Shown here piece by piece: positions 28,254 to 59,678 of a DNA stretch of 64,000 nt (its first letter is position 1; the number at the start of each line of letters is the position of its first letter). Below the pieces are notes generated by a model. That model did not search any database. It was not told where the DNA came from and saw only the letters and a list, made by a program, of their open reading frames with translations. Origin of the DNA: a bacterium BMS3Abin11 (GTDB lineage: Bacteria > Pseudomonadota > Gammaproteobacteria > BMS3Bbin11); the NCBI GenBank assembly GCA_002897635.1, contig BDTD01000015.1:124001-188000 (forward strand), in the 5' to 3' direction. The position numbers and the translations under genes are program-made.

Positions 28254-28318
28254 TGTAGGTGCGAATTCATTCGCACATTATGATGAAAAAACACCTGTGC
28301 GAATGAATTCGCACCTAC
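28254..28318. repeat. REP-like long palindrome, family GTAGGTGCGAA
   Basis: TGTAGGTGCGAATTCATTCGCACA and its inverse copy lie around a short centre, making a nearly perfect hairpin of about 65 bp after the DUF523 gene, where it could also act as a terminator. Confidence 0.85.
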
Positions 28319-43694: not shown

Positions 43695-44099
43695 ATGTCA
43701 AAAAAAATTACCGTTGAAAGACCCAGTCCCTGCATAAAATGCACCAAATCCTGGTGTTGCACCTATTTTACCCAACAGATCGACACCCCTCGCTCACGAG
43801 AAGACTTCGATGTCATCCTGTGGCAAATATCACATGAACACACCGAAGCCTACAAAGACGAAGACGGCTGGTTTCTTTTAATGACCAATCCCTGCGCCCA
43901 TTTATTACCCAATGGCGATTGCGGTATCTACGATGTCCGACCCAAAATATGCCGCGATCACTCCAGCGAAAACTGCGAAAAAGACGGCCTGGCTGGCGAA
44001 GATGACTTTAAACTCTATTTCAAAAATTATGCTGCTCTACGCAAGTACTGTAAAAAGAAATTTAAGAAGTGGGACAGGTGGGAGAAAAAGAAGAAGTGA
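43695..44099 (+). CDS. YkgJ-family cysteine cluster protein
   Basis: A 134-residue cytoplasmic zinc/iron-chelate-binding family protein. Clustered cysteines occur in CIKCTKSWCC, then NPCAHLLPNGDCGIYDVRPKICRDH, followed by a Lys-rich tail. The frame is open to 43617, but the ATG at 43695 (MSKKITVERPSPC) fits the family. Function is unknown. The 3' end runs into a tandem-repeat palindrome. Confidence 0.85.
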   Translation: MSKKITVERPSPCIKCTKSWCCTYFTQQIDTPRSREDFDVILWQISHEHTEAYKDEDGWFLLMTNPCAHLLPNGDCGIYDVRPKICRDHSSENCEKDGLAGEDDFKLYFKNYAALRKYCKKKFKKWDRWEKKKK

Positions 44100-44413
44100 A
44101 GTTTCAAGTTCCAAGTTCCAAGTTCCAAGTTCCAAGAATAATAACAAAATCAAGAACCAAAGAATTTTCACCACTGAGGACACAGGGGGACACAGAGGTT
44201 AAAAGAGAATTATAAAAAAATATTTCGAATTTTCATCCTGACAGAATTATTTTCAGGCTCGAATAATCCTTTGAACACATAAAAACCTCTGTGTCCCCCT
44301 GTGTCCTCTGTGGTGAATGAATTTGAATTTGGTTTTGAACTTGGAACTTGGAACTTGGAACTTGGAACTTGGAACTTGAAACTTGGAACTTGAAACTTGG
44401 AACTTGGAACTTA
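44099..44413. repeat. composite inverted-repeat region built from AAGTTCC heptads and CACAGAGG repeats
   Basis: Heptads AAGTTCC (44099-44137) and a CACTGAGGACACAGGGGGACACAGAGG tract split across 44170-44200 are repeated in inverse order: CCTCTGTGTCCCCC...CCTCTGTGG at 44284-44315 and GGAACTT heptads at 44339-44413. The region lies between convergent genes and includes the xerC stop codon. Transcripts would form long hairpins. Confidence 0.85.
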
Positions 44414-45313
44414 TTTTTTCCGTTTCGCTCTTGGATGCGCCTTATCGTACACCTTCGCCATGTGCTGAAAATCCAGATGGGTGTAGATTTGTGTAGTAGA
44501 GATATTCTGGTGGCCGAGTAATTCCTGTACCGCACGCAGGTCGCCGCTGGATTCAAGGATATGGCTGGCAAAGGAGTGCCTTAGCATATGTGGGTGAACA
44601 TTCCTGCTGAGTCCCTGGCGTATGGCCCAGTCTTTTATTCGTTTTTCGACACTGCGTGCTGCCAGTCTTCCTCCGCGCTTGCTGACAAATATTGCCGTTT
44701 CTGTTTCATTTGCCATAGCCTGGCGTATAAACAGCCAGTCCTTTATAGCCTCGCGTGCATAACGACCGACCGGAACGATACGCGTTTTATTGCCCTTGCC
44801 GGTCACCCTTGCTTCGCCCGCGGACAAGTCCACCTCGCCCATATCCAGTGACACCAGTTCAGACAAACGCAGGCCAGATGAATAGAATAGCTCCAGAATC
44901 GCCCTGTCTCTAATGGTCAGAGGATCATCACCCTTCAGCGCCAGCAACTGCTGTACAGTATCGATGTCCAGCGTATTTGGCAGCCTGCGTGGTCGGCGCG
45001 GTGCCTTGAGTAGATCAAACGGGTTTATCGAGACATGCTCCTCTCTAATCAACCATCGGTAGAAGCTCCGGCAGGCCGATAAAATCCGTTGAATGCTGGC
45101 ACTAGCGAGTCCATGCTGGCGCAGGCTACCCAGCCATTTTCGGCCGTGCAACAGATCCATCCCAGACCAGCTGGTGATATCCTGTGCCTCGCAGTAAATG
45201 GTCAGTCGTGTCAGATCATGTTGATAGGCAGTTAGAGTGCGGGGTGAATTTCGACGTTCGTAGCGTAGATAATCAATAAAACCATCCAGCTGATGTTGCG
45301 CCGCAGCATGCAT
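44411..45313 (-). CDS. xerC: tyrosine recombinase XerC
   Basis: A 300-residue site-specific recombinase resolving chromosome dimers at dif with XerD. Catalytic residues are visible: Arg in SSGLRLSEL, Lys in TGKGNK, the HPHMLRHSFASHIL box, His in LLGHQNISTTQ and the Tyr nucleophile in QIYTHLDFQ. It lies downstream of DUF484 and dapF, the conserved gammaproteobacterial order. Confidence 0.95.
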   Translation of the reverse strand: MHAAAQHQLDGFIDYLRYERRNSPRTLTAYQHDLTRLTIYCEAQDITSWSGMDLLHGRKWLGSLRQHGLASASIQRILSACRSFYRWLIREEHVSINPFDLLKAPRRPRRLPNTLDIDTVQQLLALKGDDPLTIRDRAILELFYSSGLRLSELVSLDMGEVDLSAGEARVTGKGNKTRIVPVGRYAREAIKDWLFIRQAMANETETAIFVSKRGGRLAARSVEKRIKDWAIRQGLSRNVHPHMLRHSFASHILESSGDLRAVQELLGHQNISTTQIYTHLDFQHMAKVYDKAHPRAKRKK

Positions 45314-47472: not shown

Positions 47473-48534
47473 TCAATACGCATCCATCCGCCCGAACCGG
47501 TACTCCAGATACGTCGGGTACTTTTTGTAGGCATCTGACAGCACATACCTCATCACGCCCTGCAGGCGGTGCAAGCCAGTCACCGAATCAAGACGAATGA
47601 TTTCCTTACCGGATCGATCGAAAAAGACCAGCGCGGGGGTGTAAAAGATTCCCAGTTTTTCGAACCATTTTCGTGCTGTCAGGTTTTCACCTGCCGGGGT
47701 CAGCACAGGATCATCCGCTTCGACGTCTAGCTGAACCACGTCGAATTTTTCTATCAAGTCCAGTACATTGGGATTTCCAAGTGGTTCGGTATGCAGAATG
47801 TCGCAGGCGTGGCAGTTCTTCTGTTCGAAGAACACAATTAATGGTTTCTCGGCCTTGAAATGACTGCGGTCAAGGGCGTACGGTGGCCGCTCAAAGAATG
47901 GCTGGCTATTTAAATCTTCCAGGTCAAATTTACCCGGCGGATCTGCTCTCTCCATATAGGCCTGCAAAGTTTCTTCTTTGTAAAACCCCTCGACGACATA
48001 CCTCAGCGCGGCACGAAACGAATAGGGTGGATAATAGCCACGCAGGCGTAAGGCAATATTGCCATCAACATCATAAAAGATGAATGAGGGTGTAAAGTTG
48101 GTTTTTTCACGGATTGAGTACTCCCGTTCGGTCAGGCTCACGCCCTCTATGTCATTTACCTGCCGACTGTCCCAGATATCGATCGGTATCACATCAAAGT
48201 TTTTCCGCATAGTGTTCTTGATATCGGGAATTTTTAGATTTATCTCCATCAGTGCTTTGCAATAGGCGCAATCCTTCTGGCCAAAATAAACCGCCAGACC
48301 GATCTTCTTCGCCTCTTTTGCTTCTTCCAGGTCGTCTTTCAGATTAAGTAAACTATTTTTAAACCAGGCAGGTATGACCACCTGATTTGGTGCCGGCCTG
48401 TCATCCACCAGCTGGTCTATCTGTTTATCGTAATCATCGAATTCACCCGCCAACGCCGGTAAAAATACCAGCACCGACGCAATACTACAGACAAAATATT
48501 TATAGAGTTTTTTACTGTTACTAAGCCGAACCAT
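47473..48534 (-). CDS. periplasmic protein with two thioredoxin-like domains
   Basis: A 353-residue exported protein with a signal peptide (residues 11-30). Two thioredoxin-fold domains carry C-x2-C pairs: Cys89-Ala-Tyr-Cys92 (GQKDCAYCKALME) and a second near residue 240 (QKNCHACDILHT). They resemble SoxW/DsbD-gamma-type thioredoxins, so a periplasmic reductase role is likely, with substrate unknown. The ATG lies inside the arm of the palindromic element at 48518-48786, without a normal Shine-Dalgarno, so its translation may depend on that structure. Confidence 0.8.
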   Translation of the reverse strand: MVRLSNSKKLYKYFVCSIASVLVFLPALAGEFDDYDKQIDQLVDDRPAPNQVVIPAWFKNSLLNLKDDLEEAKEAKKIGLAVYFGQKDCAYCKALMEINLKIPDIKNTMRKNFDVIPIDIWDSRQVNDIEGVSLTEREYSIREKTNFTPSFIFYDVDGNIALRLRGYYPPYSFRAALRYVVEGFYKEETLQAYMERADPPGKFDLEDLNSQPFFERPPYALDRSHFKAEKPLIVFFEQKNCHACDILHTEPLGNPNVLDLIEKFDVVQLDVEADDPVLTPAGENLTARKWFEKLGIFYTPALVFFDRSGKEIIRLDSVTGLHRLQGVMRYVLSDAYKKYPTYLEYRFGRMDAY

Positions 48535-48786
48535 GATTAGGCGACACTCAGCTTCTCTGTGCCTTGTTCACGGCAAGGCATCGGAACGCCACTGTAGTAA
48601 TTCTACAGTAAGTTTCGATAACGAAGTCCGTGAAAAGGCACAGAGAAGCCCGTAGGGAGGACCCAAAATGATCCAGCTCTGCGTTACGACTCTTGATAAG
48701 GGAATAACCATTATCTGCGAGTCGTGTCTTAATCTGAATCATTTTGGATCCTCTGAGTGTCGCCTAATCATGGTTCGGCTTAGTAA
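48518..48786. repeat. 269-bp multi-stem palindromic element
   Basis: Perfect 34-bp terminal inverted repeats (48518-48551 and 48753-48786) enclose two further hairpins. Stem 2 pairs 48552-48573 with 48628-48648 with one bulged base, with an inner ACTGTAG/CTACAGT hairpin (48591-48609). Stem 3 pairs 48657-48676 with 48734-48753 (the last base also belongs to the outer arm), with inner ACGACTC/GAGTCGT and GATAA/TTATC pairs. It includes the cysQ stop codon and the start codon of the next gene. Nearly every base is in a stem. Confidence 0.9.
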
Positions 48787-49610
48787 GCATCATTCTGCCG
48801 GGTATCGTTGATAAGAGGCAACCAGTCATAATCAGAATCACTAACGACAAACCAGGGGTTGAGCAAATCCTTTTTATTGTATTGCAGTTCTTTACCATCC
48901 AGGTTGGTGACCCGGCCACCGGCCGCATTTACCACAGCATGTGCTGCCGCGGTATCCCACTCTGAGGTGAGGCCCAGTCGCGGATAAATATCTGCTTTTC
49001 CTTCAGCTACCAGGCAAAGTTTGAACGAACTTCCCATGCTGAGTATTTCTGCCTCACCGTGGGTTTCGTTGATACGCTCTATCGCATGATCCAGTGCTTC
49101 GCCGCGGTGTGAGCGACTGGCAACAACGGTGGGCCTGCTGCCAGAGTAATGGCGGACTGCTATTTTTTTAACAGGGCCATTTTTTTCTGTGCGCGTCGCA
49201 GCAACGCCTTCACAGCCGGTATAAAGGATATCGTACACAGGCGCATAAACCACTCCCAGCACCGGCCTATTGCCGCTGATCAGGGCAATATTTACCGTAA
49301 ACTCACCGTTTCGATTAACAAATTCCTTCGTCCCATCCAGTGGGTCAACTAGCCAGTATGTATGCCAGCCTGAACGCTCCTGCCAGGAGATGTCGCGGGA
49401 TTCCTCAGACAATAATGGTAATTCCGGCGTTAATTTCTGCAACGCCTCCTTGATCAGATTATGTGCTGCAAGGTCAGCCTGGGTCAGTGGGGAGCCGTCC
49501 TCTTTATGCTGAACATCAAAATCCTGTTGATAGATGTCCATGATAGCCGCACCTGCCCTGGTGGCGATTTCTGCGACACTATCCAGGTAATTACACGGGT
49601 TTTGGTCCAT
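48780..49610 (-). CDS. cysQ: 3'(2'),5'-bisphosphate nucleotidase CysQ
   Basis: A 276-residue phosphatase of the inositol-monophosphatase superfamily that removes 3'-phosphoadenosine 5'-phosphate, a by-product of sulfate assimilation. The metal site shows LLSEESRD, VDPLDGTKEF and the C-terminal EWDTAAAHAVVNAAGG. It is preceded 8 nt away by nudE, as in many gammaproteobacteria. The stop codon is inside the right arm of the palindromic element. Confidence 0.93.
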   Translation of the reverse strand: MDQNPCNYLDSVAEIATRAGAAIMDIYQQDFDVQHKEDGSPLTQADLAAHNLIKEALQKLTPELPLLSEESRDISWQERSGWHTYWLVDPLDGTKEFVNRNGEFTVNIALISGNRPVLGVVYAPVYDILYTGCEGVAATRTEKNGPVKKIAVRHYSGSRPTVVASRSHRGEALDHAIERINETHGEAEILSMGSSFKLCLVAEGKADIYPRLGLTSEWDTAAAHAVVNAAGGRVTNLDGKELQYNKKDLLNPWFVVSDSDYDWLPLINDTRQNDAY

Positions 49611-59136: not shown

Positions 59137-59564
59137 CTATTTAGCTCCTCACAACAGATATAGCACCAGGTACTTAACCTGCTGGTAAAAGCCCGCAGGG
59201 TCAGACTCGATTAAACCTGGAAAATTATTACAATTTAGTCAAACCAACTACCTGGATTATAGCATTTTGCATATGAGGTGTTAATGTTAAATGGCACGTC
59301 TTTCCCGATATCTTCTACCAGAGTATCCCCATTATATTATCCATCTACAAAATGGAATGTATAATTCAAAAACCAGCAGACCTTGTCCATGTACGGCGCA
59401 TTATTTATTGTTCGAGAGGCTTCCAAAACCTGAGTACATTACCCCCGATAATAGAGCCATTTCACAGGGTGAAGGCCATGAATGGACTTCATAAATGAAC
59501 TCGTCCATGAAGGGCGAAAAACTCAGAATAAACTACCCCGCAGCAAGCTGACGGGGTATTAAAT
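59137..59564. other. intergenic region with transposase relic and hairpins
   Basis: An AT-rich stretch between cytochrome c and the SPOR gene. The frame at 59291-59494 starts MARLSRYLLPEYPHYII, which resembles the first residues of a RAYT, but nothing further matches. AATACCCCGTCA-type pairs around 59536-59560 form a short terminator-like hairpin (ACCCCGCAGCAAGCTGACGGGGTAT). Confidence 0.4.
59291..59350 (+). pseudogene. possible N-terminal stub of a RAYT transposase
   Basis: About 18 codons (MARLSRYLLPEYPHYI) match the usual RAYT start (MARLPR...PG-PHHII). The rest of the frame has no matching motif. Low support. Confidence 0.35.
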
Positions 59565-59634
59565 GTAGGTGCGAATTCATTCGCACAGCGATGCCAATGT
59601 TTATGCACATTGTGCGAATGAATTCGCACCTACA
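59565..59634. repeat. REP-like long palindrome, family GTAGGTGCGAA
   Basis: TGTAGGTGCGAATTCATTCGCACA and its inverted copy form a nearly perfect hairpin; this is the fourth member of the family in the window. Confidence 0.85.
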
Positions 59635-59678
59635 GTTTTCGTGGCAAGCCACGGGGAATTATGCCCATAGGGATTAAA

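Follow-up and report, generated by a model that had tools for sequence, protein, structure and literature searches.

The folded element between cysQ and the thioredoxin-like gene

Within the window (the whole stretch of 64,000 nucleotides analysed here), a cysQ-like gene and a thioredoxin-like gene (trx) are joined by a long folded sequence whose outer stem contains both the cysQ stop codon (48780-48782) and the trx ATG (48532-48534), which raises the question of what this sequence is and how trx is translated from a start codon placed inside a stem. The first-pass annotation had left two answers standing, a structured RNA that controls translation of trx, or a MITE-like insertion that supplied a start codon. 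The features referred to below are as follows, in the order of transcription.

48780-49610, minus strand: cysQ-like gene (inositol monophosphatase family, Pfam Inositol_P), with its last codons derived from the element
48795-48797, minus strand: CAG in place of the cysQ stop codon TAG of relative G001, so that cysQ extends to the element's TAA
48764-48793, minus strand: mini-ORF from the native trx start, ATG ATG CTT ACT AAG CCG AAC CAT GAT TAG (MMLTKPNHD, stop), with ATG ATG aligned to G001 and G005
48519-48785, minus strand: whole element including both TA copies, 267 nt with a net insertion of 265 nt, delimited by comparing the copies and by the relatives' empty junction
48784-48785, no strand: TA target duplication, upstream copy in the operon sense, as TA occurs at both ends of full copies
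48753-48785, minus strand: 5' terminal repeat, holding the cysQ stop TAA and the TAG (48764-48766) that ends the native trx mini-ORF, from sequence and frames
48657-48753, minus strand: hairpin A, from the consensus fold of six copies
48650-48656, minus strand: mini-hairpin CC-UAC-GG separating both long hairpins, same consensus fold
48551-48649, minus strand: hairpin B, same consensus fold
48519-48551, minus strand: 3' terminal repeat, holding the trx ATG and the MVRLS codons, which continue the native trx frame in the ORF 47473-48534
48519-48520, no strand: TA target duplication, downstream copy, on the same grounds
47473-48534, minus strand: thioredoxin-like gene with two thioredoxin-like domains and an element-derived start codon

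The 34-bp perfect terminal inverted repeats reported at first pass were found again at 48518-48551 and 48753-48786, and the arm sequence had 0 chance matches in 100 shuffled windows. The reported extent of 269 bp (48518-48786) is thus right as to the repeats, while the element proper, running from TA to TA, is slightly shorter. Both genes are read on the minus strand, as had been reported. The minus-strand RNA folds at -164.3 kcal/mol in comparison to -68.9 +/- 5.0 for 200 dinucleotide shuffles, none of which was as good (z = -19), so the anticipated excess over shuffled sequence is large; the predicted shape is a Y, with the outer stem closing the two long inner hairpins that had been described. 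Inside its 267 nt the element has short ORFs only and no transposase gene. The search for a promoter or an intrinsic terminator within it returned a single weak match to each, no better than shuffled sequences give, and Rfam covariance models gave no match to the element up to E = 1.

Insertion history of the junction

In relatives of the same genus, cysQ and trx are adjacent and the element is absent, and their empty junction fits the removal of 265 nt with one TA left behind. The junction in G001 reads ACT CGG TAG AAT GATG TTC TTC AGT AAA, with the cysQ stop TAG and the trx start ATG ATG, in comparison to ACC CGG CAG AAT GATGCT-TA-element-TA-ACAGTAAA in the window. This comparison indicates that the element entered codon 3 of the original trx frame and duplicated the TA, and the placement exactly between the two genes proposed at first pass is therefore not supported. 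A single TA restores the codon length relative to the relatives. The cysQ stop may have changed from TAG to CAG after the insertion, or it may have been lost earlier.

The 3' repeat ends in CCTAATCATGGTTCGGCTTAG-TA, and its ATG lies in the old trx frame, giving a predicted start of MVRLS-NSKKLYKYF. As had been noted, this ATG has no Shine-Dalgarno sequence before it, a property of the subfamily to which the element belongs (subfamily 1 below), whose 3' arm ends ATG GTT CGG CTT AG-TA. The net insert is not a multiple of three, so the idea that it might be one proved wrong, and stops at positions 4, 20 and 45 of the element, one per frame, leave no in-frame read-through.

Copies of the element in the genome

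The genome (2.67 Mb in 38 contigs) was covered by our searches together with the loci that these returned. Subfamily 1 is represented by five full-length copies (86-100% identical), flanked by TA on either side, and by three partial ones, as expected of a mobile element. The frame and layout seen at trx recur at ubiG, at an egtB-like gene and at yidD, making four full copies of this kind in all. The ubiG product now starts MARLS-NVDPAEVGK, while five relatives have an uninterrupted MTTDTxN(V/I)D; the EgtB-like product starts MVRLS-IDRLSSLHD, and that of yidD starts MVRIS-NIPVSILKF. All four genes retain their native start, which now begins a mini-ORF ending at the TAG of the 5' arm (MMLTKPNHD, MTTDTLTKPNHD, MNKVLTKPNHD and MCTNPSLN, each followed by the stop), the native starts of the egtB-like gene and yidD being read from this genome alone. 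At yidD the 3' arm keeps the ATG and the 5' arm is without its complement. Like several other copies, the remaining full-length one (L004) is away from gene starts: it is found at the 3' end of a gene that gave a weak HTH match, and both of its arms now carry GTG in place of ATG. In relative G005 a copy precedes xni, and a search of the named genome collection with the exact end pattern returned one record, a solo arm in the Gammaproteobacteria MAG M_MetaBat.99.

The copies, the empty site, the TA duplication and the in-frame ATG repeated at other genes uphold the second of the two first-pass answers, the MITE-like insertion that supplied a start codon. The first, a structured RNA controlling translation of trx, did not hold, since every copy carries the structure wherever it landed and the relatives' junction is without it. 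The hairpin may still affect translation in general, which is the mechanism proposed below.

The surviving native starts also allow a different account, programmed bypass, in which the ribosome would take off at the native CTT, land at the CTT of the 3' arm and skip the element. The last native codon is CTT at trx, ubiG and the egtB-like gene, an in-frame CTT is present in the 3' arm, and the presence of a stop in the gap and of a strong hairpin resembles T4 gene 60. However, the corresponding codons differ at yidD (TGT and ATT) and are unmatched at tolA, the native TTG start has been lost at trpS (both genes are described below), the CTT follows from target preference, and the in-frame ATG makes bypass needless. 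We regard bypass as very improbable.

Other subfamilies and their spread

Searches with the inner hairpin placed the element in a superfamily, whose other members are likewise about 265 nt long and Y-shaped and have related hairpins but different terminal repeats. Subfamily 2 (TA-GTGTAGTGTTTCATAT...) reads outward as ATGAAACACTACAC-TA, with the start ATG AAA CAC TAC AC-TA, and supplies MKHYT or MEHYT to tolA, recG, trpS and yggX; at rpmC and corC the ATG is lost, and a native ATG lies directly downstream there. A stop in the matching place is present in only some subfamily 2 copies. The tolA junction is empty in both G001 and G005. The native TTG of trpS, still present in G001, G005, G006 and G003, is TTA here and the element's in-frame ATG remains; together with the change of TAG to CAG at cysQ, this suggests that native signals decayed beside the element.

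Subfamily 3 (TA-GTGCTCCTTCAACC...) has no ATG and reads outward as GAAGGAGCAC-TA, with a Shine-Dalgarno-like GAAGGAG. It immediately precedes urtE, pilC, a family 2 glycosyltransferase gene and a hexapeptide transferase-like gene, and atpH is preceded by a 41-bp internally deleted remnant of it. For the genes with element-derived first residues, the protein families were confirmed, and the conserved part of each protein starts after those residues. Related forms occur at scpA-scpB, ispA-dxs, ftsY-ftsE and others. When 369 genomes drawn from the class were queried with subfamily 3, relatives turned up in 36, spread over about 30 families. Element ends could be recognised at 14 of these loci, and at 9 of the 14 a long ORF begins at an element end. 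Judged by sequence comparison, differently ended relatives gave starts to many other genes here and, in several further bacterial families, also lie where genes begin.

Several further forms were observed. Palindromes of 31-41 bp at L083, L092 and L029 consist of the two terminal repeats only and are internally deleted elements; the palindrome at atpF-atpH still gives a Shine-Dalgarno sequence and GTG to atpH. At L022 (G000:C16, 1392-1921) a subfamily 3 element is nested in a subfamily 2 element upstream of ftsE. Further subfamilies (ends GTGTGG...) at L047, L050, L051, L102 and L103 are not at gene starts and have a longer repeated intergenic context. In the subfamily 3 elements L014 and L017, hairpins A and B have tips complementary to each other over some 22-25 nt (GGCAATGGTTATTCCCTTG and CAAGGGAATAACCATTACC), which makes a loop-loop contact possible.

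The window also contains other repeats. Heptamer arrays (AAGTTCC) lie on both sides of a 34-bp inverted repeat (44167-44200 and 44284-44317, TTCACCACTGAGGACACAGGGGGACACAGAGGTT) at 44086-44425, and a short hairpin based on GTAGGTGCGAATTCATTCGCACA occurs twice, at 28255-28318 and 59561-59637; hairpins in relative G005 (L047 1858-1912 and L051 55-110) resemble it.

Placement at gene starts

An element was counted at a gene start when an ORF of at least 100 aa opened within 270 nt, with its start -20 to +15 nt from the element end. The percentage of elements at gene starts was 63% (27 of 43; 14 of 21 in this genome) in comparison to 16.2% (499 of 3077) for random TA sites from the same loci, with a nominal p of 8e-12; yidD, yggX and rpmC were missed only through the 100-aa cut. 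A second, simple estimate from the window placed in-phase start insertions at 4.6% of survivable TA sites. The pattern was already known when the two tests were designed, the copies are not fully independent, and one orthologous site pair is included. Placement counts do not separate targeting from random insertion followed by selection.

These counts bear on the most serious competing explanation, a plain MITE whose fold has no translational role, in which the ATG is a lucky one, the gene-start insertions are the survivors, and ribosomes initiate there independently, or on an mRNA that has been processed or begun internally. In-phase cases may be enriched by survivor bias, and the one weak promoter-like match inside the element, which is no more than chance, could be placed on the same side. 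On the other hand, three subfamilies with unrelated terminal sequences all offer a start signal that could be used, at about the same position, placement at gene starts is far above the controls, and the subfamily 1 ATG is buried in a 31-bp stem and is without a Shine-Dalgarno sequence. Taken together, we consider this explanation rather unlikely, and still the one most deserving of attention among the alternatives.

Pairing changes and recombination between arms

In the consensus fold of subfamily 1, 11 of 110 pairs were changed on both sides with pairing kept, in comparison to 39 of 105 for subfamily 2. Such double-sided changes show that the palindrome is maintained, and they do not tell whether at the level of DNA or RNA. 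In the insertion at scpA-scpB that is common to two species (L072 and L128), the interior is inverted while the outer repeats are collinear and co-varying, which suggests that recombination or correction between the arms is at work and that elements can flip. The inversion weakens the interior orientation as a clue to a strand-specific function, and since arms recombine, the co-varying arms are explicable at the DNA level by the plain MITE as well.

It had been noted that mismatches of the stem become G-U pairs on the sense strand. This is true of the present copy (2 G-U and 0 A-C single mismatches), but other copies vary; over 22 elements, which share ancestry, there were 33 G-U in comparison to 16 A-C single mismatches on the sense strand. 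The excess is suggestive of selection on the transcript, and we do not count it as proof. The extreme fold, and the excess of G-U over A-C in this copy and over the set, speak for a structured RNA that specifically regulates the cysQ-trx operon. That explanation nevertheless seems highly unlikely to us, because the sequence is missing from the same junction in relatives, near-identical copies stand at unrelated genes, Rfam gave no match and the 33:16 count is not independent between copies. In its stricter form, a conserved operon-specific riboregulator, it is refuted by the copies, the empty junction and the absence of an Rfam match.

A model of start rebuilding by the terminal repeats

The reading we prefer, with a probability of roughly 0.7, is that of a non-autonomous, TA-inserting MITE-like element whose terminal inverted repeats double as translation signals, with re-initiation opened by the ribosome. 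Mobility, copies, empty sites and in-frame starts are established at the level of sequence; use of the element's starts by these genes is well supported by the same comparisons; and we hypothesize, from folding models, that coupling across the hairpin is opened by the ribosome.

In subfamily 1 the stop and the start lie on opposite strands of one stem, a few base pairs apart. In free mRNA the ATG would be concealed by the long outer stem. A ribosome ending the mini-ORF or cysQ at the stop of the 5' arm would pull the outer stem apart and expose the ATG facing that stop on the opposite arm, where the same ribosome could re-initiate or another could bind, the folded interior holding stop and start spatially near. 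Re-initiation would keep cysQ and trx translationally coupled although they are 265 nt further apart. Subfamily 3 could rely on its Shine-Dalgarno sequence instead. In free RNA the predicted probability that the ATG is unpaired was 0.001 for trx, egtB and ubiG, and 0.36 for yidD without a ribosome. When a ribosome footprint on the mini-ORF TAG was imposed in a constraint model, the mean unpairing of the 30-odd nucleotides around the ATG rose from 0.02-0.07 to 0.36-0.48 at the four genes, and the probability for the ATG itself after opening ranged, by constrained folding, from 0.02 (ubiG) to 0.87 (yidD). A start opened by a stop in this manner would allow the element to be tolerated in operons and at gene starts where an ordinary insertion breaks the gene.

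The buried start and the missing Shine-Dalgarno sequence could also mean that the insertion inactivated trx translation and that the gene is decaying. This is hard to reconcile with an intact frame of 353 aa that is 84% identical to the G005 orthologue, and the same layout would then also have had to kill ubiG, yidD, tolA, trpS and recG, several of which are normally essential or important; we give decay very little weight.

A broader form of the preferred reading is that the superfamily is widespread in Gammaproteobacteria and consists of mobile hairpins adapted to operons, whose subfamilies independently evolved start-rebuilding ends (a TA-phased ATG or a Shine-Dalgarno sequence), whose starts are opened by the terminating ribosome, and which in this way enter the gene starts of housekeeping operons, leave the genes intact and rewrite host N-termini. 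We offer this tentatively, at somewhat less than even odds.

Relation to known elements

The element has most of the features by which MITEs are recognised: it is shorter than 600 bp and without a transposase gene, it has 34-bp terminal inverted repeats and dispersed copies, and the TA duplication is accompanied by empty trx, ubiG and tolA junctions in relatives. TA duplication is also a trait of IS630/Tc1-mariner elements. A search for an autonomous partner by the end pattern, with 3 mismatches allowed, returned the short element and fragments only, and a search of the genome for an IS630-type transposase with Pfam DDE_3 alone gave no match above the cut-off.

RUP of pneumococcus is mobilised by IS630-Spn1 and uses TA targets (PMC2229807), and ERIC-type elements have TA ends (PMC2759123). 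As MITEs derived from IS630/Tc1-mariner, RUP and the enterobacterial ERIC/RU-1 are like the present element in being short, with inverted ends, TA duplication, a long hairpin and dispersed copies; the present element differs in its sequence, in its Y shape with two long inner hairpins, and in having ends that hold start, stop or Shine-Dalgarno signals with copies within gene starts. Rickettsia palindromic elements (RPE) are palindromic and insert in genes with the frame unbroken (PMC10969869), but they are translated through as an internal peptide, whereas here the incoming frame is stopped and a new start supplied. The RU-1, RU-2 and RU-3 elements of Delihas are small mobile sequences fused to coding frames (PMC2759123); in those fusions the element's own open frame forms a peptide of the annotated gene, while here the terminal repeat supplies the start, and no case of a terminal repeat as the start codon of conserved housekeeping genes was found in that paper.

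In integron arrays, an attC/attI hairpin lies between co-transcribed genes and a small ORF couples translation to a gene without its own initiation region (PMC8876359); attC, however, is moved by an integrase and hinders downstream translation, whereas here a TA-inserting element supplies the start. Bypass in T4 gene 60 and in mitochondria involves a structured insert in a coding frame with a stop after the take-off point (PMC5009743), and it yields one protein across the gap, while here an in-frame start follows the gap. Promoters, IHF sites, RNase III sites and peptide fusions are covered in MITE reviews and in the RU/ERIC work (PMC10969869, PMC2759123, PMC2229807), and in the open-access papers searched we found no description of a bacterial MITE terminal repeat as the start codon or Shine-Dalgarno sequence of conserved genes. 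The element may thus be placed as MITE-like, in a new subfamily, and its start-rebuilding terminal repeats are an apparently new property, as far as we are aware.

Implications

One would expect gene-dense operons to be kept clear of mobile elements. Elements at the starts of ubiG, tolA, trpS, recG, yidD, atpH, scpB, pilC and urtE appear to provide translation signals to these genes, which, if true, would represent a separate means by which selfish DNA avoids doing harm. The copies offer a ready-made series of hairpins in which translational coupling across a gap of 265 nt could be measured. Each of them predicts an exact N-terminal peptide (such as MVRLS... or MKHYT...), so that the claim can be checked directly by proteomics, and, if it is true, many annotated starts and N-termini in these genomes would be of transposon origin.
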